A DNA stretch of 64,000 bases from positions 13,266,001 through 13,330,000 of the forward strand of contig OU612068.1 of the NCBI GenBank assembly GCA_914767715.1, written 5' to 3'. This document shows, piece after piece, positions 4,901 through 30,026 of the stretch; the first letter of the stretch is position 1, and every line of letters begins with the position of its first letter. The notes below the pieces were generated by a model, which saw only the letters and a list, made by a program, of their open reading frames with translations, was not told the DNA's origin and made no database searches. The position numbers were made by a program, and so were the translations under genes. The stretch comes from Membranipora membranacea. Lineage: Eukaryota; Bryozoa; Gymnolaemata; Cheilostomatida; Membraniporidae.

Positions 4901-6674
4901 GAAACATAAAAGTAATGATGGTATTCACCCTATCACAAATCAAATTAACATTATACCCAGCATTAGTGATCTATTCTTTACACTGACATGTGAGACTTTC
5001 TTTTCAAACTGCTGGTCTCATTGCGGCGCAATACCCAAATCTCTATATATGTTTTGGTTAAACTGAACATCTTTAATAATGTTCATTTCATGTGTGTTTC
5101 TAGAACTGTTTGCTGAAGAACTTTTCTCCCAGATGAGCATCTCCTCTTCAGACCAAAAATCAATCAAAATCAAGTATATGAAGACTCTACCCTGTGATGG
5201 GTTCGATATTTACTCAGTAACATGGCATGGGAAAGATATTGTCTGTGGAACCAAAAACGGTGTTCTCACACTCAACGAGCACTTGCAGAAGAAACAAGTT
5301 AACATACGCGGTCATGTCGATTGCATCAGGAAAATAGATAAATATGCCTTTGCCATTTTGTACAGCAAAGACCTCCCTGAGCGAGAAGTGAGAATATCCT
5401 GTAAGAACACTCTGGCCGATCCGAAAACAACATTGTGTAGATTTCCCCAGGATAATGAAGATCTTTTGCATTTATCTGTTTCTGAACAGTATGTTGCAGC
5501 CTGTGACAATGTGGAAAAGGTGGTTCATCTGTGGACAACAGAAGGGGAACACTTGATGAAAATCGGTTCAGGTCACCTCCGTGGCCCGTTTGGCGTGTTA
5601 TTACTACAGGACTCAGTTCTTGTCAGTGATTATGATGCGAGATGTCTTCACAAGTTCAGGCTGCAGCCCGGATCAGAGCCAGTGTGGACATGCAGAGGAC
5701 TCGATACTCCGGCGGGGATATGTGTGGATAACCTTGGCAATTTATATGTAGCATCAAGAAACACAATCTATCTTATCGCCCAGGATGGTAAGTTAGAGAT
5801 CTTCACTAGAGTAAGTTGGATCCAATTTGCCAGCATTCCAGATGTTCCCATTCTAATAGTAAGTTGGAATGGGCAACTCCAAATGCAGGTAAATTGGATC
5901 ATCGTAAATCTAGATCTCCAATGATGCACATTCGTTAAAGTATTAATGAGGGTGATGGTATTTTGAAATGAATATCTGCTCTCAACAAACTGAATATCTT
6001 TTGCGGTATCATAACCATGAATATTCCCAATCTGAGTGATTGTTTCCCATTTCTCTTGGCTTTCCACACAACAAAATACTATATTAGTTAATATAAGCTA
6101 GTTTAGCTTTAGCTAGTTTGTGGGTGCTTACTTATGTCAGCCAGCATCTAATAGCTGCTAGCTGAGGTGTAGTCCAAATAAAATAACGAGGGTGAGTAGA
6201 TGTCAGCTAACATTAAATTTAGCTAGTTCATGTACATGTGAAATGGCAAGCTTCTCTTTTTATGAAAACTTTACTCCTCTAGAGTATAATGGCTCCCTTC
6301 ATCATAACAGTTGAGTTGAAGATATTTCAATCATAGTGTTGAGTTAGTGAGCTAGTTGCTATGGTTATTAACCTGATATGTCAATCAATACAAGATCATG
6401 TTATATTTCTGCTATACTTCAGGACTGCTGGCTGTGTAAATTATCCTTGAGTTGAATCACAATAATAATATAGAATATTATAAGACTAAACTTCTCTAGC
6501 TTCTTGCATACATTTTTTTTGTATATTGTTCAAGGTTTACTGACAAAGAAGTTGTGTTGCGAGGAGCTAAGTAAAACTGAGAAAGTTTTCGATATCAGCC
6601 TATCAGAAGATGGAACTACAATAGCTCTGGCATGTGATGATGAAGGGGTGAAGATATTCACTCTTACGCCGTGA
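1973..6674 (+). CDS. TRIM-like protein A (RING, two B-boxes, coiled coil, NHL-like propeller), 621 aa, 7 exons
   Basis: The exons are 1973-2127, 2478-2664, 2851-3061, 3231-3424, 4204-4498, 5104-5787 and 6535-6674. All introns are GT-AG with phases 2, 0, 1, 0, 1, 1, and the joined frame is open to the TGA at 6672-6674. ATG 1973 is preferred over the in-frame ATG 1943 because it sits in CCATGG and matches the genes E and F starts. Residues 13-51 form a C3HC4 RING (CGFC, PCSHVFC, CPVC). Residues 89 to about 127 and 147-177 are two B-box-type zinc modules, 185-347 a predicted coiled coil with many E/K/Q, and 348-621 about six NHL-like blades (for example GPFGVLLLQDS, PAGICVDNLGNLYV). By family this is a cytoplasmic E3 ubiquitin ligase whose propeller picks the partner; the target is unknown. 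Intron 4 holds a TIR element. Confidence 0.88.
3888..4135. mobile_element. MITE with GGGGGGTCTTTCAATTAGAAA inverted ends, in gene A intron 4
   Basis: A 248-bp element whose ends are inverted copies of TGGGGGGTCTTTCAATTAGAA. The same intron in genes B (around 13225) and C (around 27510) reads GACCCTGGATTG without it, so those are empty sites. The interior has a second inverted repeat around the GAGTGAGCGAT motif. A related copy lies at 44438-44696. The target duplication is ambiguous because the flanks resemble the ends. It contains no coding sequence. Confidence 0.85.
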
Positions 6675-8275
6675 ATATGAATATACCGTGAATGTCTGAT
6701 TGAAGACAATGGATCCAGATGTTTGCCTGCCTGACAATCAGTTTGTTTTATTAAGTAATTATTTAGTAATTCTTTCATTGAAATTTTTATGTACAATATA
6801 TGTCACAAAATTTGCCTGATGATGATATCATTGATTTATCTAAGTTTTTTGAAGTCATAAAATGGACCAACGATTTTTTGCAAACTTAATTTAGTTTAGG
6901 AAAAATCTATCCTTTATTCAAGAAAGATTTACCCTGCATTGTTCAACGGTTTGTTTGAAGATCTGACGAAAATGTAATCAATTCTCATGTCATTTTGGTT
7001 GGCTATAGCAAGATGATTGGCTTGACTAACTTTTACTCCAACTGCTAGCAATTTCAGTTTAGTTTGTTTCAGAGTTCTTCTCCCATCCAGGTCCTAAGAC
7101 CGTTGAAGTTGTTTGCCGGAAAGCAAAAAGCTACTGAGTATAGAATATAATAGATTATTTCAGATATGGCTCCTTGACTTAACCAATGGGGGATTTACCA
7201 AATCATCTGCGTAACTTAATTAGGAGTTGTCTACCTCTTTGTACGGAGGAGGCAACTCACTCTCCACAGGTGCATGCTGGGACATGATTGTTTATCTATT
7301 TCAAATTACACCATATGCTGAACGGAGACAGTTTCTTATCTCACTGCATTACGATAATTCAAAGGCACGATTTGACACAGCTCCCTGACTGTGGCAAGAG
7401 GAGCAACTTTTTTTGCGTTCAGTTAAAATGTTATTGAATTTGTCAGTAGGGATTGTTGTGAGCCTGAGCAAGCTCGATAGCCTGGACAGCCTGCCAAGGC
7501 TAGATTGTCGTCAAAATGTTGATTGGTAATGCTGTAAGCTGAGCTAACCTGTAAAATTCACAAGTTTAACAAGCTTATTATTATGTGTCTACTCGCTGTT
7601 GCGTATTCTTCAAATTTGCTTTTGTGAAGGCATATAGGCTTTTTTAACTTTGTGTTGCTAGAAATGGCATTCCATTTTGATTGATAGTGCTAGGTACTCC
7701 AGCAATCAAAGCAAGCGTCAAGTACTCAAACAAGATATCATGAAGTATTTTCCCTTGCTGGCAGTTTGTGAGTTGGACTAATAATTGAATATTATTATCA
7801 GAGTGGTTAGGCTAGAGAATGTCGTTCTATTAGTACCAATTCTTATCATTTGAATACATTTTATGATATCAATGGAATGCAAGAGGGGTTTGTCCCCACA
7901 AACCTACTGTTTGAGTTCTATTGAAACTGAATGAGTACATATAGACAAACAAAAAACTTGATTTCAGCTCATTATATCCATTTCAAAATTTGAACAGTGC
8001 TAAGCCACAGGATTAAAAGAAAAGGTGAGCAAGCATTCATATTTGTAATGTAAAGTAAGGTGTAATAATACGATGATGATCAAATTCGTTCCCATCTGTT
8101 AGCAGCATTTGAGCAGCAACTCAAAACTGGTATAGGGAAGTAGAGCAATACTTGAGCAACTTTGTCCTATATACTGATTTTGTATTGGTGTTGTGCAGCT
8201 AAACTCTAAAGCAGAAAACAATCAATATCAATATCAATCATAATGCGGGAGCAGACTGAACTTGTTTAGGATAAC
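6675..8275. other. intergenic stretch after gene A
   Basis: No gene is seen. It is collinear with 15739-17351 and 30027-31599. A block near 7190-7290, ending in CAGGTGCATGCTGGGACATG, has a diverged inverted copy at 37919-38002 downstream of gene E. It therefore belongs to the older 3' flank of this gene family. Confidence 0.7.
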
Positions 8276-8485
8276 ATGGCAGAAGCAACTGTTGAGTCAC
8301 TCCTTGATGACATCACAGCCCCTCTCGAGTCAGAGGAACAGGAGAGACCTGAAGCTGTCAGCAGTGATCACTGTGAAGATGAGGACAACCTTATGGATGA
8401 TGACTTGAACTGTGGATTCTGGTTTGAGGAGCAGGTAATGAAGGGCAAGGAAATTCCATTGAGTGGCGGTGGTGATCAGTGTTAA
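8276..8485 (+). pseudogene. truncated first exon of a D-type TRIM gene, unit 1
   Basis: The first about 50 codons match gene D (31600): an acidic N-terminus (VESLLDDI, SDHCEDEDNLMDD) up to the first RING residues LNCGF. Where D continues into the rest of the RING, the sequence changes abruptly at about 8424 into the 3' end of an antisense LINE fragment. The frame then runs about 20 foreign codons to a TAA at 8483-8485. Only the first RING cysteine remains, so no RING can form and no downstream D exons follow. It is a gene relic that could make a 69-aa peptide. The same break is in unit 2, so the event predates that duplication. Confidence 0.85.
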
Positions 8486-8960
8486 ACTGGTGGATTAGCA
8501 TTGCTCAGGGTGTCTGCGCACAGATGAGTGGGTGGCACTGCTGATGTATTTGCCGAGCACAGCAGGGTCGTTGTGGTGTTACTTGCTAAAGACTTGAAAG
8601 CGTCATTCGTGTCTACGCTGTGAGAGAGTTGATATATTCAGCTTGTGTAGGAGACCTGTAGTGTATTATTCTCGCAGCCCGTCTCTGCACAGCCTCAAGT
8701 TGGTTGGTGGCCAGCTCCAGATACAGGATGAGTATTCTAGCACTGGGCGGACGAGATGTTGGTACGCAGTTTGTTTCGCATCTTGTGATTTGGTACAAAA
8801 ATTACAGCGGATGACAGTGTCGAGTTAGCCTTGGCTTGTTGAGGTGAGGGCGCCAAGTAAAAATTGGGTCTATTGTTATATCTTGGTAGTTGATTGTGTC
8901 AGCACGTGGTATTTGAGTGTCATGAAGATGAAGCGGCTGGTTGTCAGGTTGGTGTTTGCG
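8470..8960 (-). mobile_element. LINE 3' fragment, antisense, unit 1
   Basis: On the - strand this encodes the C-terminal part of a LINE reverse transcriptase, including NQLEAVQRRAARI followed by a frame ending near 8613. The reading frame is interrupted, and only the 3' end of the element is present. It joins the D-type first exon at about 8424 and is shared with 17546-18060. Confidence 0.75.
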
Positions 8961-9802
8961 GGAGAAGGTGATGTATAGGTAGGGTTATTTCATTCTTATA
9001 TTAGTCTTGCTTGCTCTCAACAGGGAGAATTCTCTCTGCTCTGAACAGATAGGCAGTCATCAAGTGATAGAAAGCCATATGTATGGAGCATTGAATTCCA
9101 TATAGTACAATTCAATGGTATGGAGTTATCCAAACTTTGAACATGAGTAGGCAATCCCTTGTAGAACTAGCTTTCCTTTCTACAATTGTGAAAACTTGCT
9201 ATTTATTGAGGTCAAGGCTAAAGCTGTAGTACTTTCCAAAACAATAGACAACCAATTATTGTCAATAATTTGATAATAGAAAAATTGGTGTGTCTGTGCA
9301 TAAAGATTCTCCCTGTGAATGAAAACTGCAGCTGAGAGCAGAGTGAGTAACCAAGGAGTAACCAAGGAGTAACTGCCAGTGTTGTTAGCCACTTATGTAT
9401 GAACAGAGCCATATATATATATACCATTAACTAGATAGTTAGCCTGTATTGACACGCATTTCCTACCTTTGTGCCCAAAGTTATGAAATGCAGCAGTCAT
9501 GAAGTGTGGCCAATTGTACAGCTAACACTAACAGCTGTTAAAGAGTAGTTGTTAGCTTTCGATAAGTAACTAACTTATTGATCTTTGATCTATATGCCAT
9601 ATCTCAGTCAATAATGGACTCCTTGCTTTATTTCATGGGTCATATTAGCCTGTCATGTAAAGCTTTTCAAGACAGGCTAGGGTCATATACTCATATATTA
9701 AAGCACACCAGTGAACTTCAGTTCATGGGAGGAAGAGGGAGTTCATTGAGCACACTATTCCTCACAATTTTACAACCTAGGACATGGCTGAATCTCCTAT
9801 TA
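8961..9802. other. noncoding stretch of unit 1
   Basis: No gene is seen. It is collinear with about 18061-18709 of unit 2. It has a small GTAACCAAGGA repeat near 9350-9375 that is shorter in unit 2. Confidence 0.6.
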
Positions 9803-10456
9803 CCGTAAGGTCGCGTATTGTAGCCGCATGGTTAATGTCCATGAGTGGTTAAAACTTAGTCAAGCATACCGCGGATATAATAAGGGCATTGTTTTCAAAT
9901 TCTATAGGCAGGCGGCTAATGAGTGAACATACATACTAATTCAGTTGTAACATGCTAGCATTGACTATATATCTCTTATTTTTATTAACAATATCCGACC
10001 TCAGAAGAGACATATAAAATTGTTGAGCTCAATGTAGTAACCTTGACCTCAAGCAGTTGTTTGCCTCGTTACAACTACATAAGATTATCATCCGATTAGA
10101 AACGATCTGACCAATAGTCAACCAATCAGCATTCTTCTTCTCCAACCAGTTGATGCAATGATTATTATTATGGCAGACAGAAATGTATCATAATGTTTTG
10201 TTTTGAAGAAGTAAGTAGGACAGCTGTGGGCTGTGGTCAGGTCTGTGCAGTGTGGTGGGAGGGCATTAGCATGTAACACATAGTGTGCACATTTCTTGAT
10301 CATTATATTGCCTGGGCGGCTAGATATTGTGGTTAAATGGGGGCTGTGGTCAGTGGGCTTGCTGGTGTGATATGGCTAAAATCTGTGTTATGTTTCCTAA
10401 ATTAATCCAGGCCTGTTCACCAACAAGCCACGTGGTTACAATACGCGACCTTACGG
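9803..10456. mobile_element. non-autonomous DNA transposon with CCGTAAGGTCGCGTATTGTA inverted ends and TA duplication
   Basis: A 654-bp element. Its left end and the reverse complement of its right end agree over about 30 bases with few mismatches. It is flanked by TA at 9801-9802 and 10457-10458. Unit 3 keeps the empty site at about 24690 (CTCCTATTATAATTATTG), with a single TA. TA duplication suggests mobilisation by a Tc1/mariner-type transposase, which is not encoded here. No long reading frame is present. Confidence 0.9.
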
Positions 10457-11306
10457 TATAATTATTGTACATCACAGAATCTAGAACAGAGAAAGTCATG
10501 TTCTGTAAATGCAGTGGAGTAGCCACTGACTATGAAAGTTTTTTTGTAGCCTATTCATTTCAATCTTAATTGGTGCAACAGAACACATACTAATGAATGT
10601 TGCAAAGTAGTTGTAGCCCCAACAACAATGCTTTGTACAAGGAGTAAAAACTCATTGCTTCGTAGTCCGGCAGTGTTGTAGGCAACGGCATATGAAGCAC
10701 TTTCCACTTTCATGTTGTTACGATTTGTGGCGCTGGTTGGATTCCTGTGAAATTCTACTACACCTTACAGCACCCACTAAGACTGTCATTAACAGTCTTG
10801 CCTGTGAGCAGTATGACTGCTTGTGATAAGTATGGGTATAATGAGTAACACAGTAATAGATAGGTTAACTAACTCTCTATGTCTGGACATAGAAGTCATC
10901 ACCGGAGCAGGGTAGACATGGGCCTCTGGGACTTATATGCCTTTACTTTGCCAATGTTCAGTATATTGATCCTGGACATTGGCAAAGTAGAGGCATGTTG
11001 ATGTAAGTCCCAGGGGCCCATGACGGTAGAGTGCCGGTGTAGTATCATGAGTGTGGTGGATGCAGATGCGTCCTTCTGGCCATCAACCACTTGACTTGCA
11101 CAAACTGTAAAGCGATGTGCTAGTTGTATAAAATTAACCATGGCATATTTTATTTAAGCTTGCATGGAATAATAAAAACTAAAAAAAATTAAAATTGTGA
11201 AGAGCAGCAGCCTGAGATCCAGTTTTGATCCCATAGAGCAGGCTAAGTCAAGACCGGACATTTATTTGCCATTTTTATGAAATATTTTTCCAGAATCAAG
11301 ATATCC
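10457..11306. other. 5' region of gene B
   Basis: Noncoding. It holds the unit boundary (10616), the complete hairpin at 10917-11022 and a TATAAAA at 11127. No gene is seen. Confidence 0.6.
10917..11022. repeat. long inverted repeat upstream of gene B
   Basis: Arms of about 45 bases with an eight- to ten-base loop. The left arm starts CATGGGCCTCTGGGACTTA and the right arm ends TAAGTCCCAGGGGCCCATG. A six-base bulge lies in the right arm. It sits about 285 bases upstream of the start codon. Confidence 0.85.
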
Positions 11307-14300
11307 ATGGCAAAATCAAACGCAAATCAAGAAGAGCTCAATTGTGGATTCTGTCTGCAGAAGTTGACATACATGATAGAACCTAAACAGTTACCCTGCT
11401 CTCATGTCTTCTGTTTACCTTGTTTAGAGGAGGATCCTAAGAAAGACTGTCCTGTGTGCAGGTGAGTGAAGTGCATTCAAACCAATAGTGATTGGATGCT
11501 CAATATAATATTCCATTGTTGAATCACCCTCCTTTGAATTCCAGTCCACATTCTATCCGAATCAGTGATGGTGGGAGGACATGTTCAGTGTTGTCCCATT
11601 CTTTAACCATACCAAGTTGATTTGAATGCAACATCTTTCACAAAACAGCGCAAAGGACTCATCATATGATTCTAATAATTACCGCTCATGAGAGAAAACA
11701 ATGGTGAGAAAGGGAGAAGATTTATCGAGATAGGTCCAGAGAAGATGTGTGTGTGTGTTGTCATTTATGAATAAAGTAACAGGACCTTCTTTTATAACTA
11801 TCTAGGAGAGTTTATGATGCACAATGGACTGGGATGAAGAGCTTCTTGAGACCATCAGAGACAGACAGTGACACTACTACAGAAAAAAGAGAAGATAACT
11901 CAGATCAGATCGAGTGTGGTGTTTGTAAATATCGGAAAGCTGTCTGTTACTGTTTAGGGTGTGAAAAGAAACTCTGTGATCACGACTTCAAGGTAAGAGT
12001 CTGTATGTCAAACATTTAATGTCAATGGAATTTGATGGCCTGAACCATACATACGTATGTGCGTACGTACTTACACACATACATACATACATACATACAT
12101 ACAAACAAGTGTAAGTGTATCTACTATCAGTTAATGGCTTCTCTGCTCCAACAAGTCAACACTTTTGCGGTCCTCTCTGCTTTCAGATCCATGAACAGTC
12201 ATCGATATACTTTACAAGCAAGCATCATCAGATAGACATAGCTGTTTATGCCTCCAACCCAGAGAAATATACACCAGTTTACTGCTCTCACCACAGGGAA
12301 CAGAAACTTACTGTGGCTTGTTACCACTGCCACCAAGTATTCTGTGAGACATGTCATCCTAAGCTGTCAAGTTGCTCCCAAAGCAAGGATGAACGAGGTA
12401 AGTATATTTTGCTTGGGTACCAACTTATTGAGGAATGAATTCATTATTTTTAAGGGTTGTGAAGGAATTATTGAATTTTTTTATTCTAATATCCTTTTGT
12501 TTTAACCTGTTAATAGTGTCCTTGTTTCTGTGAGTGTTATTTTCTAGAGCATTGTTGTTTTCTTCAGGGCTTCATGCAATTTCAGCAATCGCTATGATGG
12601 CTGACAGCATGAGGCTTCAGTTGAATGATAGGATTAAGAAGATAGCTGACCAAGTCACAGAAGGTCTAAACCTTGAGAAGAAATCATGGAGTAGTCTGTA
12701 TGATGTGGAGTGTGAAGTAACAAAGATGATGAGTGAGATCGATGAGAGGGTTGAGAAAGCCGTAAGTTGGTTTATACTGTATCCTCAGTGGAGGTGAGAT
12801 TCCGGTAACTATTTCAACAAAGTTTCAGAAAGTTTAGAACTTTGGCAACACCTAGGACTAGTTTGCTTCCTCTGTTATATTGCAAATATCTAACTAGTTC
12901 TAGGTGTTACCAAGGTCTTTGACTTTTTGAAGCTTTGTTGAAGTTGTTTAGAATACAATTCAACCAACAATTTTTAATTTGTATGCATGCATGCAATAAC
13001 TCACTCGCTGTTATCAAAATGTCTTTCTAAAAGTACCTTTTGGTAACTATGAGGTATTATGTAAGATGAAAATTGTGTGATCTGGGAGACTTTCATGATT
13101 ACAGGCAATGCTCCCTATTGCCCTATCAGGATATGGGATATGCTTGAATAGGTACATTCAGTAAAGCTCCATATGACCAACCAAACACCAATCAAAGCCA
13201 TGACATTGGCTGAAAGGGACCCTGGATTGTAGACTCTCAGATAGGTTTGGAGTTACCTGATTTTATTGAAATTTTTAACCTCGTGTTACAGATAAAATCC
13301 CTAAGAGAAAGCGCTGAACAGATGAAGAATGAGCTGAGAGAGCATCAGGCCAAGTCTTTGTCAGTGGTAGAAGCTTACAGCTTGCAGCTGACTGAGCAGA
13401 GCGACAGACTTGAGGCACAATGGAAGGAGCTTAACAGAAAATTTCAGGACATGAAAGGCTCAGAAGTTATCACTAAGTATGAGTCTCTCAAGAGCAGTAT
13501 TGATAGCAGGTCACCAGCACTGTATGAGGCATCACCAAAGTTACCACTTAGACCAAAGATTCTGAGTCAAAACCCTGTTTTGAAAGGTAGGCTAATAGAC
13601 TCTAAATAGTCAGTTTTCCTGTATTGAATTCGAGCCTATAATAGGAGCTGTCCTATCTCCATTTGGATACTGTGAAACACTTAAATGCAAAGCATAGGAA
13701 ATTGCATCAAAGTGGCTGTGTCTGGAGGACTATCTAAAGTTCATTAAAAATGAAAAACCATCAAATTTGGCATATGCAGCATTGAAGAATCGAAAGGACG
13801 TGTCTTTTGTTAAAAATATAATTGATAATTATTTCAATATTACATGCTACAATAATAATCTGTAACCATTAAATCTTTTTTTTTTCACCTTTTTTGTTTC
13901 TTTTTAAAAGCACTTTTGGAAAACATTTTACAGAAAATGGTATAGATGCCAAAAAAGTTATCAGAAAATTACTTAAAAAGGTGTGGAAACATAAAAGTAA
14001 TGATGGTATTCACCCTATCACAAATCAATTTAACATTAGACCCAGCATTAGTGATCTATTCTTGACACTGACATGTGAGACTTTCTTTTCAAACTGCTGG
14101 TCTCATTGCGGCGCAATACCCAAATCTCTATATATGTTTTGGTTAAACTGAACATCTTTAATAATGGTCATTTCATGTGTGTTTCTAGAACTGTTTGCTG
14201 AAGAACTTTTTTCCCAGATGAGCATCTCCTCTTCAGACCAAAAATCAATCAAAATCAAGTATATGAAGACTCTACCCAGTGATGGGTTTGGTATTTACTC

Positions 14301-15738
14301 AGTAACATGGCATGGGAAAGATATTGTCTGTGGAACCGCTAAGGGTGTTCTCACACTCAACGAGCACTCGCAGAAGAAACAAGTTAACATACGCGGTCAT
14401 GTCATATGCATCAGGAAAATAGATAAATATGCCTTTGCCATTTTGTACAGCAAAGACAACACTGAGCGAGAAGTGAGAATATCCTGTAAGAACACTCTGG
14501 CCGATCCGAAAACAACATTGTGTAGATTTCCCCAGGTTGATAAAATTATTTTGCATTTATCCGTTTCTGAACAGTATGTTGCAGCCTGTGACAATGTGGG
14601 AAAGGTGGTTCGTCTGTGGACAACAGAAGGGGAACACTTGATGAAAATCGGGTCAGGTCACCTCCGTGGCCCGTTGGGCGTGTTATTACTACAGGACTCA
14701 GTTCTTGTCAGTGATTGTGAGACTGGATGTCTTCACAAGTTCAGGCTGCAGCCCGGATCACAGCCAGTGTGGACATGCAGAGGACTCGATTTTCCGACGG
14801 GGATATGTGTGGATAACCTTGGCAATTTATATGTAGCAGCAAGAAACACAATCTATCTTATCGCCCAGGATGGTAAGTTAGAGATCTTCACTAGAGTAAG
14901 TTGGATCCAATTTGCCAGCATACCAGATGTTCCCATTCTAATAGTAAGTTGGAAGGGGCAACTCCAAATGCAGGTAAATTGGATCATCGTAAATCTAGAT
15001 CTCCAATGATGCACATTCGTTAAAGTATTAATGAGGGTAATGGTATTTTGAAATGAATATCTGCTCTCAGCAAACTGAATATTGAATAAGTGCTCTCTTT
15101 TGCGGTATCATAACCAACAATATTCTCAATCTGAGTGATTGTTTCCCATTTCTCTTGGCTTTCCACACAACAAAATACTATATTAGTTAATATAAGCTAG
15201 TTTAGCTTTAGCTAGTTTGTGGGTGCTTACTTATGTCAGCCAGCATCTAATAGCTGCTAGCTGAGGTGTAGTCTAAATAACATTAAATTTAGCTAGTTCA
15301 TGTACATGTGAAATGGCAAGCTTCTCTTTTTATGAAAACTTTACTCCTCTAGTGTATAATGGCTCCCTTCATCATAACAGTTGAAGATATTTCAATCATA
15401 GTGTTGAGTTAGTGAGTTAGTTCCTATGGTTATTAACTCTATATGACAATCAATACAACATCATGTTATATTCCTGCTATACTTCGGACTGCTGGCTGTG
15501 TAAATTATCCTTGAGTTGAATCACAATAATAATATAGAATATTATAAGACTAAACTTCTCTAGCTTCTTGCATACATTTTTTTTGTATATTGTTCAAGGT
15601 TTACTGACAAAGAAGTTGTGTTGTGAGGAGCTAAGTAAAACTGAGACAGTTTTCGATATCAGCCTATCAGAAGATGGAACTACAATAGCTCTGTCATGTG
15701 GTGATGAAGGGGTGAAGATATTCACTCTTACGCCATGA
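11307..15738 (+). CDS. TRIM-like protein B, 621 aa, 7 exons
   Basis: The exons are 11307-11461, 11806-11992, 12187-12397, 12568-12761, 13292-13586, 14189-14872 and 15599-15738, with lengths and phases identical to gene A. The joined frame is open to the TGA at 15736-15738. The RING (residues 13-51) and both B-box modules keep every zinc ligand. The coiled-coil exon 5 has a few replacements (for example SLQLTEQSDRLEAQW). The propeller differs from A and C at a limited set of positions: 382, 398-399, 420, 438, 464-468, 510, 524-526, 551, 564-566, 592 and 610. Most are replacement changes. The inferred role is the same as for A, an E3 ligase with a different propeller specificity. Confidence 0.88.
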
Positions 15739-17351: not shown

Positions 17352-17561
17352 ATGGCAGAAGCAACTGTTGAATCACTCCTTGATGACATCACAGCCCCTC
17401 TCGAGTCAGAGGAACAGGAGAGACCTGAAGCTGTCAGCAGTGATCACTGTGAAGATGAGGACAACCTTATGGATGACGACTTGAACTGTGGATTCTGGTT
17501 TGAGGAGCAGGTAATGAAGGGCAAGGAAATTCCATTGAGTGGCGGTGGTGATCAGTGTTAA
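17352..17561 (+). pseudogene. truncated first exon of a D-type TRIM gene, unit 2
   Basis: Almost identical to 8276-8485. It has the acidic D-type N-terminus, the first RING residues, then the same break into antisense LINE sequence and a stop at 17559-17561. It confirms that the truncation was already present when units 1 and 2 separated. Confidence 0.85.
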
Positions 17562-18709: not shown

Positions 18710-18765
18710 TGTTGCGAAGTTGGGTTCTAATCAGGATGGCAAGATATAAGGCAGTCCACTCACCA
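18710..18765 (-). repeat. left LTR, outer part
   Basis: Matches the first about 56 bases of the right LTR (24399 onward) with one or two differences. It is interrupted at CACTCACCA by the LINE; the rest continues at 22269. Confidence 0.85.
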
Positions 18766-21700
18766 CCATCAAGATATCCGGTTTCATGGCGGCCAGCCGC
18801 AATTTTTAAGTGCTCTTAGACTTAGAAAATTCACAGTTTTATCCAAATTTATGCTTTTAACCTTTACACAAACAAATTTTAACATTGCAAATTTTACAAA
18901 GAGTGTTTGTTCAGTGTCAAAGAGTATTTGTTCAGTACCAAAGAGTATTATTGTTCAGTACAAAGAGTACTTGTTCATAACAAAGAGATATTGTTCACTC
19001 TTGACTTGGAGCAACTCCTTGCTTGGAGTTAGCTTGGAGCCTGGACTGGATTGGATACAAACTGGAGTGGAAACAAACTGGACTGGAAATAGCTTGGAGA
19101 CTAGACTGGATTGGATACAAACTGGACTGGAAACAAACTGGATTGGAATCAACACTGGACTGGATCATGGATTACACCGGAAGAGGCTCATCTAACCTGA
19201 CAACTGGAAAGCAGCATGATGACACCGTGAACCAGGAGGAGCCCATTGAAATCAGCAGCCTCTATCTCTGTGGAGCTTGTCACCATCCTGTCACATGGGA
19301 AGATAAAGGTATACTATGCGAAGACTGCTCAACATGGTTCCACATTTCATGCCAAAACATCAACTCAAATGAATACTCAAGACTTGACAACAGTAGCGTT
19401 GCCTGGGCATGTCTGAACTGTAATTCCATCAACTACAGCCATATTGCCTTCAACTGCTCAGTGACATGGCTGAAACCAGAGATCTACACAGCTGAGCTTG
19501 AACTCGGTGACTACAGCGTGTTTAGAAGAGACCGCCCAGCTGGAGGTGGTGGTGGAGTTCTCATTGCTGTCCACAACACCATCAGCTCTACAGAGGTTGA
19601 CGAGAAAAGCCAAGGCGCAGAATTCATCTGGGTCAAGGCTATTCTGACTGGACAACAACATCTCTACATAGGAGCTTGCTATAGACCCAATGTAGCAGAC
19701 AAAACAACCATCCCTCAATTACGAAACTCTGTTGATAATATTTTAGCAGACAACCATAAAAACATCATCATCGCAGGTGACTTCAACCTACCAGGCTGGG
19801 ACTGGACTGCCATGCAACTCAAACCAAATTGCCCTCAACAATCAAACCATCAGGAACTCAAAGAACTACTAGACACTGCAGGTCTGACACAGCTTGTTAA
19901 AGAACCAACAAGGATCAACAACACGCTGGATCTAATCATGGCGAATATACCAGAACGAGTCAACAGAACCAAAATCTTACCAGGCATCAGCGATCACCAC
20001 ATCTGCTACACAGAACTGTCACTCCGGGCAAACAGGAGAAAACAGGCCCCAAGGACCATCTGGCTGTAAAAGCGCGCTGATTGGGATGGACTATTGAAAC
20101 ATGTTACACCAACACTACAAAAGCTCACAACTAGCCGACAACCAGTTGAAAAGATGTGGACGCACCTCAAGAACACCATCCATGAGGGAGCTAAGAAATT
20201 TATCCCTACCAAGACAACAAAGAAACACAATCGAAAACCGTGGGTCAGCCCTATCCTGGAGCAGAAGATCAAACTCAAAAAACGACTGCATAGAAGAACG
20301 AGGAAAAATGGAGGACAGCAACTGGAGAAGAGATACAATGATGTCAGAAAAGAAGTTCAGAGAGAGTTTCGCAAGGAACACAACAAGTTCGTGGAAAACA
20401 TCTTGACAGAAGAAGAAAATGATAGCAGCAAGACAAACAAGAAATTCTGGGCTTACGTCAAACAGAAAAGATCAGACAACTCTGGAGTTGGCACATTGCG
20501 AGTCAACTCGAAACTAATTACAGACCCTACAGAAAAGGCAGAGGCGCTAAATAAACAGTTTCACTCTGTCTTCAACCCTGTCTCCCCATCAGAGCCTGTA
20601 AACACCGCTGGCTCCAATGACATGTCAAAGATAAAGATCTCTGAAAATGGAGTCCTAGCTTTACTGAAGAAACTCAATCCCTACAAGGCCACAGGACCTG
20701 ATGACCTCAGCCCTAGACTATTAAAGCAGTTGGCACCAGTATTAGCAGGACCTTTAACCCATCTCTTTCAGAGATCCCTGGACACCTCAACGATACCATC
20801 CGACTGGAGGAAAGCATGAGTCTGTCCAGACTTCAAAAAAGGAGATAAATACCAGCCTTCTAACTACCGATCCATTAGCCTCACCTGTGTCGCGAGCAAA
20901 CTACTTGAGCATATCATCACTAGCCAAGTAGCACACCACCTGGAGACTACAGAGAAACTGACACCAAAACAACATGGATTTCGACCGAAACGATGTTGTG
21001 AGTCGCAGCTCATAGAGCTTTTGGCAGATATCTCGGCACTCATGGACCAAGGGAAAGAAGTTGATGCTTGCTTCTTGGACTTTGCAAAAGCTTTCGACAA
21101 GGTTGACCATGTCAAACTTGTCCACAAGCTAAAAAACATCGGAGTCAATAATCAAGCCACCAGATGGATTGAGGACTTCCTTTCAAAGAGAACCCAAGTC
21201 GTGGTTGTGGATGGCTTTCCTTCCACTCCCTGTAAAGTAACATCAGGAGTTCCCCAAGGCTCAGTCATTGGGCCCCTACTCTTCACCATCTTCATCAATG
21301 ACCTCCCTGACTCTGTCAGGTCCAATGTCAGACTATTTGCGGATGACACTGTCATCTATAATACTGCTGACAATCGAGATAAACTCCAAGAAGACCTCCA
21401 CACACTAGAGACTTGGGAGAAAGAATGGAAAATGAAATTCAATGCTCTCAAACGCGAGCATATCAAGATCAGCCGAAAACGAGAGCGAGGTGTGAACAAT
21501 ACCTTCACCCTGCACAACATTGACATGCCAAAAGCTACAGGAGTGAAATGCCTAGGAATCAAGTTGGAAAACACACTGAGATGGAATGAAAACAGTACGT
21601 TTATCACCAGTAAAGCATCGGGTAGACTTGGCTATGTCAGCAGAACTATCCCCCCGTCGCTCCCGGACTTGAGAAGTCGGGCCTACAAATATCTGGTACG

Positions 21701-22264
21701 ACCCGTCATTGAGTACTCGAGCACGGTGTGGGATGGAGCTCTGACCAATACTCAGATAAACTCCATTGAAGCAGTCCAAAGAAGAGCAGCCCGGATGGTG
21801 TCCAATGTCAGAAGAACTGATCACACCACCAGCACTACAAAACTTCTGGAGGACCTGGAGTGGGACACACTCAAAGACCGAAGGGAGAGAAGAAGGCTCG
21901 GCATCTTCCGCGCTATGCACTACAACAAGGTTGCTGTTAACATCACTGACTACCTCTCTCCACATCCTACACATGCTGGACAGTCAAGGAAACACCAATC
22001 GCAGTATTTTATCCCTCACTGCAATACCAAACTGCACCAGAACAGCTCCTTTGTGAGCACTGCTAAACTGTGGAACGCCCTACCGATCGGCAGCACCCTC
22101 CTCGAGGGACCCCCAGTGGCAGGCTAAGGTTGATGGCGATCGATCTACCGACCCTACGTTGCAGACCCGGAACGGAGACGGACAGACGAGATGACATATT
22201 GCCACAACCTTCTCACAGAAGTTGGCGATTAACCTTCAAGTACCAAGTAAGTAAGTAAGTAAGT
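18766..22264 (+). mobile_element. LINE (PHD-finger type) inserted in the left LTR
   Basis: About 3.5 kb, flanked by ACCA at 18762-18765 and 22265-22268. The uninterrupted right LTR (ACTCACCATGAAAG, about 24446) gives the empty site. The 3' end is a TAAG/AAGT tandem repeat (about 22243-22264) rather than poly(A). The 5' region has direct repeats around CAAAGAGTA (18897-18990) and GGATTGGATACAAACTGGA (19035-19150). The element carries one long frame with two in-frame stops. Confidence 0.88.
19167..22127 (+). pseudogene. LINE polyprotein: PHD-like finger, truncated endonuclease, reverse transcriptase (two in-frame stops)
   Basis: One frame runs from ATG 19167 to TAG 22127 but is cut by TAA at 20067-20069 and TGA at 20817-20819. 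It starts with a PHD-like zinc finger (CGACHHPV, CEDCSTWFHISC, WACLNC). A piece of APE-type endonuclease follows (GACYRPN, GDFNLPGWDW, ISDHH), but the N-terminal part with the first catalytic Asn is missing and the usual ETWL reads VTWL. The reverse transcriptase follows, with HGFRPKRCCESQL, FAKAFDKVDH, SGVPQGSVIGPLLF, the catalytic FADD box and the thumb with QRRAARM. No frameshift is seen over about 3 kb, so inactivation looks recent apart from the endonuclease deletion. Confidence 0.85.
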
Positions 22265-22268
22265 ACCA

Positions 22269-22460
22269 TGAAAGTCAGTAGACAAGTGCTCATGTGAGTC
22301 TCTTCAATCAAGGTCACGGTCAAGTCAGTCTCTGTCATATATAGGTCAGGGCAGCTGATGATAACTCCTTAGTATGTACAGAGAGGACAACTCCAAGATA
22401 CATGTACAAAGTACATGTATGACAACATGACAAAAAACCTTATGATAGGACTAGTCCACA
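22269..22460 (-). repeat. left LTR, inner part
   Basis: Continues the LTR after the LINE (ATGAAAGTCAGTAG to CTAGTCCACA). It matches 24450-24633 and has an extra CATGTGAGTCTC-like insertion near 22290. Confidence 0.85.
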
Positions 22461-22705
22461 TGCCCTTACTATTATAAGGGTTTTTTTGACACATACTCTA
22501 TAACCCTAACAGGGTTGAGAGACTTCACATGCTCTTTCTTTGAGAAAGGGATGTTTACTCATACTCTGTGGCCCACCATCAGGGTTAGCACACAACTACG
22601 GGGACTACCGACAACTGTCAGCAATCACACAAGCAATAACGAAAAGCGGATAGGATGTTAACTTAAAACAAGTATGTTTACATACAAGGTGACAACAGCT
22701 CTTCA
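22461..22705. other. internal 3' region of the LTR element
   Basis: On the - strand this lies between the gag stop and the 3' LTR, where pol would normally be. Only about 245 bases are present, with no coding sequence. The short inverted motif CCCTTACTATTATAAGGG lies next to the LTR. Confidence 0.6.
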
Positions 22706-24001
22706 CTAGATTAGAATATTAGAATTTACAGAGGGAAGTGATCTCTGCCAATTACTATCACTACTACCTGAGCTCTGCCTAGGTGGAGAGCGGTCATCAC
22801 ATGACTTTCTTTTAGTTCGCTCTTTGTACCTTTGGTCTGAGCTCCCATTCACTCTACAACTGCAATCTCTTGCTGAGACGCCTTCACGCAAACAAAACCT
22901 ACATCTATAAACATCAGTACAATCCTGCTGGTGATGTGACATCCTTTGACATCTGAAACACCCGCCTTCAGGACAGTAACGCGCAATATGATCATTTTTA
23001 TGACATATATAACAGCCAGAATGCTGACTACTACTATGACTTACATACCTCCTTTCACGGTCAGGTGAAGGGTAATCATCATGATCACTCCCACCATCAC
23101 CATTATAACGATGGTTGTCACTACAAAATCTCTTGTTTTCAGAACCTCGATTAGAATGGTTATAAGCATCATGATAAGTATTACTTACACTACACTCATC
23201 ACTTCTCTCTCGGTGAGGACGACACTTCACTTCACCAACATGCGCCTGTATAACAGTAACATTTGGTACAACATTGATTGGATCACAAACTACACTAGAC
23301 TCAGCGTGTAATTCAACTTTAACAGGTATTTTAGCAGGGCCCTGTTTACTCTCTGAAAGCGCATAAGTCGGGTCTGATCTATTTAAGGCATTCAAAGACT
23401 CTTGCGCAGCTAGTCTTGCCCTTAACACTTTGTTGATCTTGACCCAGTTCAACTCATCATCAGCCATCATCTCAAACTTCAATTTTGAGTTACGCAAACC
23501 TCTTACTGCGATCAACAATGCAAATCTCTCTCTGACATTGCCACCAGAGAAATCACATTGTCTACTCAGACCTTCAACAGGCAGAAGATAAGCGCGTTCA
23601 TCCTCATTGTCAAGTTGTTGACATGTAACAAACTTGTCCAACTTAACATACTCAGACTCGTCATGCTCAAAGTGTTCTCTCAACAAGTTCCACACATCTA
23701 AGAACTCCAAAGATGTGGAAAACAAGTCAACACCAAGCGATGACACTACTTCACGAGCATCACTGCCCATACACCAGAGCAAAGACGCCAGCTTTGCATC
23801 TTCACCGAAGCGAGGCACCCTCACTTTTTCGGTAACTCTAGAACCGCCAGTGCCAGTAGTCACTTCTTCGATGTTATAGCCAAGTTCAATCGACTTCATT
23901 CTTAAAGCCAGATTAAACTCAACAGACCACCGCTTAAATGACCCATGGACATTGGATGAGTCTACAACAAACACAGGTAGACTAGCAAAGATACTAGCCA
24001 T
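22706..24001 (-). CDS. retrotransposon Gag protein with CCHC knuckles, about 431 aa
   Basis: A single open frame from ATG 24001 (strong context GCCATGG; an in-frame ATG at 24025 is less likely) to the stop at 22706-22708. The N-terminal part has capsid-like sequence (FKRWSVEFNLALR, LLWCMGSDAREVV, LREHFEHDESEYVKLDKF). Near the C-terminus are cysteine/histidine knuckles, CYICHKNDHIARYC and CFRCQRMSHHQQDC, then CRFCLREGVSARDC. A serine/arginine-rich tail follows. Gag packages element RNA into particles. Being intact without any pol suggests it is used or was recently used with pol from a relative. The exact LTR superfamily cannot be told without pol. Confidence 0.85.
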   Translation of the reverse strand: MASIFASLPVFVVDSSNVHGSFKRWSVEFNLALRMKSIELGYNIEEVTTGTGGSRVTEKVRVPRFGEDAKLASLLWCMGSDAREVVSSLGVDLFSTSLEFLDVWNLLREHFEHDESEYVKLDKFVTCQQLDNEDERAYLLPVEGLSRQCDFSGGNVRERFALLIAVRGLRNSKLKFEMMADDELNWVKINKVLRARLAAQESLNALNRSDPTYALSESKQGPAKIPVKVELHAESSVVCDPINVVPNVTVIQAHVGEVKCRPHRERSDECSVSNTYHDAYNHSNRGSENKRFCSDNHRYNGDGGSDHDDYPSPDRERRYVSHSSSQHSGCYICHKNDHIARYCPEGGCFRCQRMSHHQQDCTDVYRCRFCLREGVSARDCSCRVNGSSDQRYKERTKRKSCDDRSPPRQSSGSSDSNWQRSLPSVNSNILI

Positions 24002-24398
24002 GGCACCAGTGTACAACCTATACAATAGTAAGCTAGGGTATACTCAAGCGACACAAGTTCAAATTGTATTCAAGAAGACAAAGAAAACTATTACTCAAAT
24101 TTCCAGCCAAAATTTGTGAACAAAGATGGAGGAAAATATCTTTTGTTGTTTGATTTTTGTATGTTTCACTTCTCATACACCTTGGCAACACTTCCTCCTC
24201 ACCTAAACTAGGGCTTTCCACTCCTAGTTAGTAACTCACCTAAACACCTTTTCTACACACCTTTTTCTCCTTACTCCTCTCCTCAATAACACCTTATCTC
24301 CTACTCATTCACCTCTCCTATACACCTATCTTTCTCCTCTACACCTCTCCTAGCACTTCACCTTCACCTCTCCTAAGTATATCTCACAACTGACACCA
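24002..24398. other. 5' leader of the LTR element
   Basis: Between gag and the 5' LTR on the - strand. The primer-binding-site-like TGGTGTCAGTTGTGAG lies at 24383-24398. On the + strand it is rich in CTCCT/CACCT runs. There is no gene. Confidence 0.6.
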
Positions 24399-24633
24399 TG
24401 TTGCAAAGTTGGGTTCTAATCAGGATGGCAAGATATAAGGCAGTCCACTCACCATGAAAGTCAGTAGACAAGTGCTTCAATCAAGGTCACGGTCAAGTCA
24501 GTCTCTGTCATATATAGGTTAGGGCAGCTGATGATAACCCTTTAGTATGTACAGAGAGGACAACTCCAAGATACATGTACAAAGTACATGTATGACAACA
24601 TGACAACAAACCTTATGATAGGACTACTCCACA
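24399..24633 (-). repeat. right LTR (5' LTR of the element)
   Basis: 235 bp, TG...CA ends in both orientations, intact. It is closely similar to the two left-LTR pieces. An inverted motif TACATGTACAAAGTACATGTA lies inside. Confidence 0.88.
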
Positions 24634-25542
24634 GTCATATATAAAGCACACTATTCCTCACAATTTTACAACCTAGGACATGGTTGAATCTCCTATTATA
24701 ATTATTGTACATCACAGAATCTAGAACAGAGAAAGTCATGTTCTGTAAATGCAGTGGAGTAGCCACTGACTATGAAAGTTTTTTTTGTAGCCTATTCATG
24801 TCAATCTTAATTGGTGCAACTGAACACATACTAATGTATGTTGCAAAGTAGTTGTAGCCCCAACAACAATGCTTTGTACAAGGAGTAAAAACTCATTGCT
24901 TCGTAGTCCGGGAGTGTTGTAGGCCACCCCATATGAAGCACTTGCCACTTTCATGTTGTTACGGTTTGTGGCGCTGGTTGGATTCCTGTGACATTCTACT
25001 ACACCTTACAGCACCCACTAAGACTGTCATTAACAGTCTTGCCTGTGAGCAGTATGACTGCTTGTGATAAGTATGGATATAATGAGTAACTCAGTAATAG
25101 ATAGGTTAACTAACTCTCTGTCTGGACATAAAAGTCATCACCGGAGCACGGTAGACATGGGCCCCTGGGACTTACATGCCTTTACTTTGCCAATGTTCAG
25201 TATGTTGATCCTGAACATTGGCAAAGTAAAGGCATGTTGATGTAAGTCCCAGGAGCCCATGACAGTAGAGTGCCGGTGTAGTATCATGAGTGTGACGGAT
25301 GCAGATGCGTCCTTCTGGCCATCAACCACTGGACTTGCGCAAACTGTAAAGCGATGCGCTAGTTGTATAAAATTAACCACGGTATATTTTATTTAAGCTT
25401 GCATGAAATAGCAACTAAAAATAATTAAAATTGTGAAGAGCAGCAGCCTGAGATCCAGTCTTGATCCCATAGAGCAGGCTAAGTCAAGACCGGACATTTA
25501 TTTGCCATTTTTATGAAATATTTTTCCAGAATCAAGATATCT
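24634..25542. other. 5' region of gene C
   Basis: Noncoding. It begins with sequence collinear with 9750-9802 plus 10457 onward of unit 1, including the empty TA site near 24690. It then holds the unit start (24857), the complete hairpin (25156-25261) and TATAAAA at 25366. Confidence 0.65.
25156..25261. repeat. long inverted repeat upstream of gene C
   Basis: Arms of about 45 bases, nearly perfect (CATGGGCCCCTGGGACTTA with its complement), with a six-base bulge GTTGAT in the right arm. Same place as in unit 2. Confidence 0.85.
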
Positions 25543-28500
25543 ATGGCAGAATCAAACGCAAATCAAGAAGAGCTCAATTGTGGATTCTGTCTGCAGAAGT
25601 TGACATACATGATAGAACCTAAACAGTTACCCTGCTCACATGTCTTCTGTTTACCCTGCTTAGAGGAGGATCCAAAGAAAGACTGTCCTGTGTGCAGGTG
25701 AGTGAAGTGCATTCAAACCAATAGTGATTGGATGCTCAATATAATATTCCATTGTTGAATCACCCCCCTTTGAATTCCAGTCCACATTCTATCCGAATCA
25801 GAGATGGTGGGAGGACATGTTCAGTGGTGTCCCATTCTTTAACCATACCACAACCAAGATGATTTGAATGCAACACTTATCACAAAACAGTGCAAAGGAC
25901 TCATCATATGATTCTAATAATTACCACTCATGAGAAAAAAACAATGGTCAGAAAGGGAGAAGATTTATCGAGATAGTTCCAGAGAAGATGTGTGTGTTGT
26001 CATCTATGAATAAAGTAACAGGACTTTCTTTTATAACTATCTAGGAGAGTTTATGATGCACAATGGACTGGAATGAAAAGCTTCTTGAGACCATCAGAGA
26101 CAGACAGTGACACTACTACAGAAAAAAGAGAAGATAACTCAGATCAGATCGAGTGTGATGTCTGTAAATATCGGAAAGCTGTCTGTTACTGTTTAGGGTG
26201 TGAAAAGAAACTCTGTGATCACGACTTCAAGGTAAGAGCCTGTATGTCAAACATTTAATGTCAATGGAATTTGATGGCCTGAACCATACATACGTATGTG
26301 CGTACATACTTACACACATACATACATGCATACAAACAAGCGTAAGTGTATCCACTATCAGTTAACGGCTTCTCTGCTCCAACAAGTCAACACTTTTGCG
26401 GTCCTCTCTGCTTTCAGATCCATGAACAGTCATCGATATACTTTACAAGCAAGCATCTTCAGATAGACATTGCTGTTTATGCCTCCAACCCAGAGAAATA
26501 TGCACCAGTTTACTGCTCTGACCACAAGGAACAGAAACTTATTGTGGCTTGTTACCATTGCCACCAAGTATTCTGTGAGACATGTCATCCTAAGCTGTCA
26601 AGTTGCTCCCAAAACAAGGATGAACGAGGTAAGTATATTTTGCTTGGGTACCAACTTATTGAGGAATGAATTCATTGTGAAGGAATTATTGAATTTTTTG
26701 ACTCATGGAATAAAATTAAATTTGGTTTATATATTGATATGCATCCACTGAGAATATTAGGCTGGTCAGTCACTCTAATATCCTTTTGTTTTAACCTGTT
26801 AACAGTGTCCTTGTTTCTGTGAGTGTTATTTTCTAGAGCATTGTTGTTTTCTTCAGGGCTTCATGCAATTTCAGCAATCGCTATGATGGCTGACAGCATG
26901 AGGCTTCAGTTGAATGATAGGATTAAGAAGATAGCTGACCAAGTCACAGAAGGTCTAAACCTTGAGAAGAAATCCTGGAGTAGTCTGTATGATGTGGAGT
27001 GTGAAGTAACAAAGATGATGAGTGAGATCGATGAGAGGGTTGAGAAAGCCGTAAGTTGGTTTATACTGTATCCTCAGTGGAGGTGAGATTCCGGTAACTA
27101 TTTCAACAAAGTTTCAGAAATTTTAGAACTTTGGCAACACCTAGGACTAGTTTGTTACCTCTGTTATATTGCAAATATCTAACTTGTTCTAGGTGTGACC
27201 AAGGTTTTTGACTTTTTGAAGCTCTGTTGAAGCTGTTTAGAATACAATTCAACCAACAATTTTTTAATTTGCATGCATGCATGCAATAACACTTGCTGTT
27301 ATTAAAATGTCTTTCTAAAAGTACCTTTTGGTAACTATGAGGTATTATGTAAGATGAAAATTTTGTGATCTGGGAGACTTTCATTATGACAGGCAATGCT
27401 CTACCAATTGCCCTATCAGGATAAGGAATATGCTTGAATAGGTACATTCAGTAAAGCTCCATATGACCAACCAAACACCAATCAAAGCCATGACATTGGC
27501 TGAAAGGGACCCTGGATTGTAGACTCTCAGATAGGTTTGGAGTTACCTGATTTTATTGAAATTTTTAACCTCGTGTTACAGATAAACTCCCTAAGAGAAA
27601 GCGCTGAACAGATGAAGAATGAGCTGAGAGAGCATCAGGCCAAGTCTTTGTCAGTGGTAGAAGCTTACAGCTCGCAGCTGACTGAACAGAGAGACAGACT
27701 TGAGACTGAATGGAAGGAGCTCAACAGAAGATTTCAGGACATGAAAGGTTCAGAAGTTATCACTAAGTATGAGTCTCTCAAGAGCAGTATTGATACCAGT
27801 CCACCAGCACTGTATGAGGCACCACCAGAGTTACCGCTTAGACCAAAGATTCTGAGTCAAAACCCTGTTTTGAAAGGTAGGCTAATAGACTCTAAATAGT
27901 CAGTTTTCCTGTATTGAATTCGAGCCTATAATCGGAGCTGTCCTGTCTCCATTTAGATACTGTGAAACACTTAAATGCAAAGCATAGGAAACTGCATCAA
28001 AGTGGCTGTGTCTGGAGGACTATCTAAGGTTCATTAAAAATGAAAAATCATCAAATTTGGCATCTGCAGCATTGAAGAATCGAAAGGACGTGTCTTTTGT
28101 TCAAAATATAATTGATAATTATTTCAATATTACATGCTACAATAATAATCTGTAACCATTAAATCATTTTTTTTTGTTTCACCTTTTTTGTTTCTTTTTA
28201 ATGGCACTTTTGAAAAACATTTTACAGAAAATGGTATAGATGCCAAAAAAGTTATCAGAAAAATACTTAAAAAGGTGTGGAAACATAAAAGTAATGATGG
28301 TATTCACCCTATCACAAATCAATTAAACTTTAGACCCAGCATTAGTGATCTATTCTTGACACTGACATGTGAGACTTTCTTTTCAAACTGCTGGTCTCAT
28401 TGTGGCGCAATACCCAATTCTCTATAATATATGTTTTGGTTAAACTGAACATCTTTAATAAGGGTCATTTCATGTGTGTTTCTAGAACTGTTTGCTGAAG

Positions 28501-30026
28501 AACTTTTCTCCCAGATGAGCATCTCCTCTTCAGACCAAAAATCAATCAAAATCAAGTATAAGAAGACTCTACCCAGCGATGGGTTTAGTATTTACTCAGT
28601 AACATGGCATGGGAAAGATATTGTCTGTGGAACCAATAACGGTGTTCTCACACTCAACGAGCACTTGCAGAAGAAACAAGTTAACATACGCGGTCATGTC
28701 GATTGCATCAGGAAAATAGATAAATATGCCTTTGCCATTTTGTACAGCAAAGACCACACTGAGCGAGAAGTGAGAATATCCTGTAAGAACACTCTGGCCG
28801 ATCCGAAAACAACATTGTGTAGATTTCCCCAGGATAATGAAGATCTTTTGCATTTATCTGTTTCTGAACAGTATGTTGCAGCCTGTGACAATGTGGGAAA
28901 GGTGGTTCATCTGTGGACAACAGAAGGGGAACACTTGATGGAAATCGGTTCAGGTCACCTCCGTGGCCCGTTTGGCGTGTTATTACTACAGGACTCAGAA
29001 CTTGTCAGTGATTATGATACAGGATGTCTTCACAAGTTCAGGCTGCAGCCCGGATCAGAGCCAGTGTGGACATGCAGAGGACTCGATTTTCCGATGGGGA
29101 TATGTGTGGATAACCTTGGCAATTTATATGTAACATCAGGAAACACAATCTATCTTATCGCCCAGGATGGTAAGTTAGAGATCTTCACTAGAGTAAGTTG
29201 GATCCAATTTGCCAGCATTCCAGATGTTCCCATTCTAATAGTAAGTTGGAAGGGGCAACTCCAAATGCAGGTAAATTGGATCATCGTAAATCTAGATCTC
29301 CAATGATGCACATTCGTTAAAGTATTAATGAGGGTGATGGTATTTTGAAATGAATATCTGCTCTCAGCAAACTGAATATTGAATAAGTGCTCTCTTTTGC
29401 GGTATCATAACCAAGAATATTCCCAATCTGAGTGATTGTTTCCCATTTCTCTTGGCTTTCCACACAACAAAATACTATATTAGTTAATATAAGCTAGTTT
29501 AGCTTTAGCTAGTTTGTGGGTGCTTACTTATGTCAGCCAGCATCTAACAGCTGCTAGCTGAGGTGTAGTCTAAATAAAATAACGAAGGTGAGTAGATGTC
29601 AGCTAACATTAAATTTAGCTAGTTCATGTACATGTGAAATGGCAAGCTTCTCTTTTAACTTTTAAACTTTACTTCTCTAGTGTAACAGTTGAGTTGAAGA
29701 TATTTCAATCATAGTGTTGAGTTAGTGAGTTAGTTCCTATGGTTATTAACCTGATATGTCAATCAATACAAGATAATGTTATATTTCTGCTATACTTTGG
29801 ACTGCTGGCTGTGTAAATTATCCTTGAGTTGAATCACAATAATAATATAGAATATTATAAGACATTTTTTTTGTATATTGTTCAAGGTTTACCGACAAAG
29901 AAGTTGTGTTGCGAGGAGCTGAGTAAAACTGAGTATGTTATGGATATCAGCCTATCAGAAGATGGAACTACAATAGCTCTGGCATGTCGTGAAGAAGGGG
30001 TGAAGATATTCACTCTCACATCGTGA
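25543..30026 (+). CDS. TRIM-like protein C, 621 aa, 7 exons
   Basis: The exons are 25543-25697, 26045-26231, 26418-26628, 26857-27050, 27582-27876, 28486-29169 and 29887-30026, with the same lengths and phases as A and B. The frame is open to the TGA ending at 30026. The RING and B-box ligands are complete. Exon 2 codes the same protein as in gene A. Exon 6 differs from A by 15 residue changes and, by eye, only one silent codon change (F381), for instance 382 D to S, 438-439 LP to HT, 549 T to F and 551 A to M. Intron 3 has a private rearrangement near 26673-26770. The role is inferred as for A. Confidence 0.88.

Follow-up and report, generated by a model that had tools for sequence, protein, structure and literature searches.

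Replacement changes between tandem TRIM-NHL-like genes of the bryozoan Membranipora membranacea cluster on one predicted face of a C-terminal propeller and point to diversifying selection

The window analysed here is a stretch of 64,000 nucleotides from Membranipora membranacea (assembly GCA_914767715.1, contig OU612068.1, positions 13,266,001 to 13,330,000), which carries six TRIM-like genes: A, B, C and D on the forward strand (+), E and F on the reverse strand (-). Genes A (1973-6674, +), B (11307-15738, +) and C (25543-30026, +) are near-identical units, with 94-97% identity in long blocks when introns and flanks are counted. Each has seven exons, GT-AG introns and an intact open reading frame of 621 residues. 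They are recent tandem copies of a gene for a RING/B-box-like/coiled-coil protein with a predicted C-terminal propeller. We focused on the replacement differences between these three close copies, five copies in total with E and F, and on their concentration on one predicted face of the propeller.

In all three genes, the domain order reads as RING, two B-box-like Cys/His clusters, coiled coil and propeller, the last being encoded by exons 6 and 7. Exons 1-5 are located at 1973-2127, 2478-2664, 2851-3061, 3231-3424 and 4204-4498 in A, at 11307-11461, 11806-11992, 12187-12397, 12568-12761 and 13292-13586 in B, and at 25543-25697, 26045-26231, 26418-26628, 26857-27050 and 27582-27876 in C. In gene A, exon 6 (5104-5787) encodes blades 1-4 and all of blade 5 except its outer strand, and exon 7 (6535-6674, stop codon included) supplies the outer strand of blade 5 together with blade 6. 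The corresponding exons 6 and 7 lie at 14189-14872 and 15599-15738 in B, and at 28486-29169 and 29887-30026 in C.

A Pfam scan of full-length C assigns residues 12-52 to zf-RING_2, with 27.8 bits for a cut-off of 27.3. The matches to zf-B_box (16.9 bits, cut-off 24.1), TRIM_CC (20.5 bits, cut-off 30) and NHL (15.6 bits, cut-off 20) are under their cut-offs, the two Cys/His clusters being recognized in order by eye. In the exon 6 reading frames, NHL exceeds the cut-off of 20 in B (30.1 bits) and E (23.3 bits) and stays below it in A (19.8 bits) and F (16.2 bits). In addition, an exon 6 profile matches Pizza, PknD, TRIM2/3/71 and Brat. For full-length C, the scan listed 14 Pfam families with E values of 0.1 or less, and neither B30.2 (PRY/SPRY) nor NACHT was one of them. 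By sequence, the C terminus reads as a six-bladed NHL/WD40-like propeller, which would be closed by an N-terminal strand. The A/B/C family likely belongs to the TRIM-NHL class, although its assignment is incomplete because the B-box, the coiled coil and, in several copies, NHL score under the curated cut-offs.

Across the whole protein, 56 residues vary among A, B and C. They comprise 20 of the 348 residues of the RING/B-box/coiled-coil region, 35 of the 253 propeller residues and the last residue (621), which lies outside both loop classes described below; none of the 19 linker residues varies. In exon 6, A and C are separated by 15 replacement codons and one silent codon (F381), B and C by 23 replacement codons and five silent ones. 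These values reproduce exactly the counts of the original prediction, an earlier reading of the letters whose residue numbers are those of the spliced protein. It had proposed that replacements recur at two places in each blade. The first is the residue directly before inner strand a, which is indeed variable in six blades out of six (382, 420, 468, 510, 551 and 594). The second is a loop some residues later, and every b-c loop does contain a replaced residue (398-399, 438-439, 485, 524-527, 566 and 610-611); of the other residues listed for this class, 609 is invariant and 564, 565 and 608 fall at the end of strand b. Two further variable sites of the d-a loops, 378 and 549, were absent from that list. 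Seven more variable propeller sites fall outside both loop classes (373, 408, 489, 500, 519, 539 and 578).

Strands a-d were assigned by eye from the usual propeller pattern, with the variable sites already known. Gene D (broken), the 19 N-terminal propeller-linker codons (invariant), codon 621 (variable) and columns gapped in C were excluded before counting. The topology of the strands and alignments to propellers of known structure support the view that the d-a and b-c loops share one face, the predicted top face, as had been proposed. In these top loops, 25 of the 58 residues are replaced among A, B and C (12 of 19 in b-c loops, 13 of 39 in d-a loops), and 13 of the 25 change charge class. 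The other propeller positions vary at 10 of 195 residues only (3 of 33 in bottom loops and 7 of 162 in strands). The excess is significant when top loops are compared with the rest of the propeller (Fisher test, p = 3e-11) or with bottom loops (p = 8e-4). Among the 253 circular shifts of the map, only the true register attains 25 top sites. When every loop boundary was moved by one residue, all nine versions of the map, counting the original, gave p values from 1e-4 to 3e-11. Concerning the register, the segment from strand b of blade 3 to blade 5 aligns with the TRIM2/3 and designed Pizza NHL propellers, and blade 6 aligns with WD40 blades. Blade 1 aligns weakly with a WD40 blade of Prp19 (E 0.012), in a list of 29 matches that also had chance matches to phospholipase chains. 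We also aligned the six blades automatically, masking the variable residues, but set the result aside: its register differed across six settings, and only blades 4, 5 and Pizza agreed, in some of them.

As a neutral yardstick, we used the introns of A, B and C with exact limits. They differ at 56 of 2543 positions between A and B, 81 of 2525 between A and C and 75 of 2494 between B and C (0.022, 0.033 and 0.031, respectively). Silent divergence (dS) of exon 6 is near this level, with 0.041, 0.024 and 0.042 for the same pairs. By comparison, the top loops have a replacement divergence (dN) of 0.24, 0.17 and 0.21. Relative to the introns, this corresponds to ratios of 10.8, 5.2 and 6.8 (p = 5e-17, 2e-8 and 9e-12). 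In the bottom loops, the ratios of dN to intron divergence are 1.18, 0.40 and 1.30, none of them significant. They are 0.36, 0.37 and 0.66 in the strands (p = 0.08, 0.02 and 0.41) and 0.81, 0.22 and 0.75 in the RING/B-box/coiled-coil region (p = 0.58, 1.5e-5 and 0.28). Coarser intron limits, taken from the ends of tblastn matches and including some tens of coding bases, changed these results little.

Positive selection had been inferred in the original prediction, which called for dN/dS and site tests. We used our own implementations of codon models (GY-type, F3x4) rather than PAML, with naive empirical Bayes site posteriors. By maximum likelihood with separate partitions, omega (dN/dS) is 4.4 in the top loops and 0.35 in the rest, and omega = 1 for the top loops is rejected (p = 1e-8). 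Site models that ignore the structural partition agree, both for A, B and C (M1a/M2a, p = 3e-5; M7/M8, p = 3e-6) and when E and F are added (p = 7e-7 and 4e-8, respectively). Moreover, the sites with a posterior above 0.9 are all in top loops, 10 of 10 with three copies and 5 of 5 with five. Among 120 simulations under the M1a null, none reached the observed M1a/M2a statistic of 20.8, the maximum being 12.4. Together with the intron comparison and with the finding that these sites also vary in more distant copies, these models support the inference of positive selection.

The more distant copies lie downstream of C in the window or were retrieved from databases. Gene D (31729-36942, +), directly after C, is a much diverged and broken copy with in-frame stops in the stretches resembling exons 4 and 6. 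Gene E (39117-42908, -) is a diverged copy whose exon 6 and exon 7 matches lie at 40356-39682 and 39245-39117. Gene F (48568-57567, -), also diverged, matches exon 6 at 51670-50993 and exon 7 at 48699-48568; both stretches are open. The RING exon of F (57600-57490, -) is read in two frames, and this gene may be decayed. Protein-database searches returned P0001 (64%) and P0002, whose match (88%) covers 42% of the query and whose tail looks unrelated. P0003 was a weak match, and P0004 was TRIM-like but distant; scans of genome contigs and viral contigs confirmed no further paralogue. E, F and P0001 differ at 24 of the 29 exon 6 sites that vary among A, B and C, as compared with 75 of the 180 invariant ones (p = 4e-5). 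By class, they differ at 35 of 48 top-loop positions, 64 of 161 non-top positions and 16 of 28 bottom-loop positions. Hence, bottom loops vary too at greater distance, as expected for weakly constrained loops. Over the 97 residues that can be compared, P0002 differs from all of A, B and C at 10, four of which are in top loops and two directly before one, and it brings new residues at 398 and 420. In the blade 5 b-c loop, at codons 566-567 of C (29139-29144), E, F and P0001 are longer by two residues than A, B and C; no other change of length was seen in the propeller loops of A, B, C, E, F and P0001.

The rest of the window contains several other features. A fragment of a further RING exon (63507-63430, -) suggests that the array may continue past the window. 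Within gene F, a near-palindrome of 1.3 kb (54217-55501), 93.6% identical to its own reverse complement, is found between exons 3 and 4, and a tandem repeat with a 15-base unit and a 45-base higher unit (52773-52980) between exons 5 and 6. Stretches of the long interspersed nuclear element type, with reverse transcriptase, occupy 2-1183 (+) and 19005-22127 (+); the latter has three open frames and a PHD finger ahead of the endonuclease. An open reading frame of 445 residues (22706-24043, -) has CCHC-like knuckles and is Gag-like by eye; a Pfam search at E up to 0.001 gave no match.

Differences between A, B and C are unevenly shared from one region to another. In intron 1, A and B show one difference, as compared with 16 between A and C and 14 between B and C. 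In exon 5, A and C show three differences, and B differs from A and C at 13 and 15 positions. This uneven sharing, rather than a formal recombination test, suggests conversion between the copies, which makes the differences retained on the face more striking.

Taken together, we consider it probable that A, B and C represent a TRIM-NHL-like E3 family in which the top of the propeller is a recognition surface under diversifying selection. Four other explanations were weighed. An unlikely one, though worth serious attention, is that each face adapted once after duplication to a different endogenous substrate or RNA, with no continuing conflict. Selection tests are blind to the identity of the partner, and TRIM-NHL faces vary widely among paralogues according to two reports (PMC5908797, PMC9634614). 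However, the positions that vary among A, B and C vary again in E, F and P0001, and again at 398 and 420 in P0002, so that change looks recurrent; the changes of charge class at about half of the variable top sites also argue against a single episode. It is distinctly improbable that the three genes are haplotypes of a single locus that were wrongly stacked. Their identity in long blocks would suit alleles of a very diverse animal, but they occupy three separate positions with different intervening sequence, and allelic differences would leave the selection result the same, as balanced polymorphism.

We regard as slightly more improbable still an origin of the differences in mutation or conversion without selection, through local hypermutation or patches imported from divergent donors. 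Several hot codons do differ at two or three bases, codons 464-468 of B are all changed, and the uneven sharing noted above suggests exchange between copies. On the other hand, a single one of the 33 other top-loop codons carries a silent change, silent divergence in exon 6 is near the intron level, and transitions and transversions stand at 18:22 in top loops, similar to 56:49 in introns. Besides, the 15-base patch of B is unique in the window as an exact sequence, two matches elsewhere having two mismatches, and the signal persists without codons 464-468 (top omega 4.1) or without codons differing at three bases (3.6). Finally, drift of exposed loops under relaxed constraint in young, partly redundant duplicates, which would suit the location of variation chiefly in loops, the similarity of bottom loops to introns and the decayed appearance of D and F, is very improbable. 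Drift cannot surpass the neutral rate, yet in all three pairs the top loops have a dN 5-11 times as high as intron divergence; bottom loops, not distinguishable from introns, vary at only 3 of 33 sites, and omega is about 0.35 in the remaining coding sequence.

Several points weigh against a recognition surface under diversifying selection. The sample amounts to three close copies, or five with E and F, and all of them come from one window. Strands were mapped by eye with the variable sites already in view, though the site models are independent of this map. The assignment of the face rests on topology and sequence matches, and the blade 2 profile, with flanks up to blade 3, matched no solved chain at E up to 1. 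Of the 35 variable propeller sites, 10 lie beyond the strict top loops. Purifying constraint in strands and in the RING/B-box/coiled-coil region, as compared with introns, is not significant in every pair. Within the top loops alone, dN does not differ significantly from dS (p = 0.05, 0.22 and 0.09) because silent sites are few (about 38); the argument is based on the introns and on the silent rate of the whole gene. Removal of all codons with multi-base differences lowers top omega to 2.25, a value still above 1 (p = 0.03), which led us to reject an artefact of such codons. Lastly, a diversifying face does not by itself prove immunity.

If the top face is indeed under diversifying selection for recognition, it would be the ligand-binding surface of an E3 ubiquitin ligase, ligase activity being predicted from the RING match. 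Each copy would combine a common scaffold with a different face; the coiled coil would dimerize the protein and the RING would mark whatever the face captures. The fast-changing face probably recognizes something that is itself ever-changing, the likeliest driver being an antagonist (pathogen, symbiont or mobile element) or a self/non-self partner. Positively and negatively charged top-loop residues number 8 and 15 in A, 7 and 9 in B, 5 and 12 in C, 5 and 12 in E, and 5 and 14 in F, hence a net acidic face in five copies out of five. The original prediction had a face that binds RNA or protein. From these charge counts, a protein ligand appears more likely than an RNA backbone, because the acidic loops are unlike the positive patches of LIN-41, Brat and Mei-P26. 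More tentatively, and with somewhat less than even confidence, we propose that tandem TRIM-NHL-like ligases form an invertebrate recognition repertoire in which exchange keeps the E3 scaffold near-fixed and selection rewrites a ring of loops on one face. The 25 residues, in two loop classes per blade, provide a swappable shortlist for testing what the face binds.

The TRIM-NHL class is known above all for RNA regulators and for conserved E3 ligases, and rapid selection on the ligand-binding side of a TRIM-NHL-like propeller points to a role in conflict. Several members of the class (TRIM2/3/32/56/71, Brat, LIN-41, Mei-P26) have RING, B-box and coiled coil, an order that A, B and C probably share. 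As reported, the top of TRIM-NHL propellers binds the ligand, the tops of LIN-41, Brat and Mei-P26 bind RNA via positively charged patches, and those of TRIM2/3 are mixed in charge (PMC5908797, PMC9634614, PMC9070667). In contrast to LIN-41, Brat and Mei-P26, A, B and C have net acidic top loops, which diverge rapidly from one copy to the next. Duplicated TRIM genes with positive selection in loops of the C-terminal recognition domain are described for finTRIM and TRIM5alpha (PMC2657112). The logic of this analogy, drawn in the original prediction, fits; the domain does not, as theirs is B30.2 and that of A, B and C a propeller, with no B30.2 listed for full-length C. Selection in bat TRIM genes is the subject of a further study (PMC10145180). 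Coral tachylectin-2 is reported to be an invertebrate propeller protein under positive selection, but it is a lectin and its selected sites showed no significant spatial clustering (PMC2880987). Among the papers listed by our searches, judged from titles and abstract openings, we saw none that describes selection on the face of an NHL propeller.

For the layout of selected sites, the closest precedent is the WD40 propeller of the fungal HNWD/NWD NACHT-WD40 family of Podospora anserina (het-d, het-e). The report on this family describes very similar propeller units in one genome, d-a and b-c loops on one face, and positively selected residues in the d-to-a loop and b-c turn of this top face, the rest being homogenized by concerted evolution (PMC1805685). 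The likeness lies in the way of working, with selected residues in the same two loop classes, and not in family membership. HNWD proteins combine NACHT with highly repeated, exchanged WD40 units, whereas A, B and C combine RING, B-box-like clusters and coiled coil with a non-repetitive NHL/WD40-like propeller encoded mainly by one exon. The HNWD site layout and the finTRIM/TRIM5 context are known; a TRIM-NHL-like family with a diversifying propeller face would be new. The selection on this face suggests that different kinds of propeller arrived at one recognition layout in fungi and animals. If the recognition repertoire tentatively proposed above is real, it would be an animal, TRIM-based counterpart of the fungal HNWD non-self recognition propellers.

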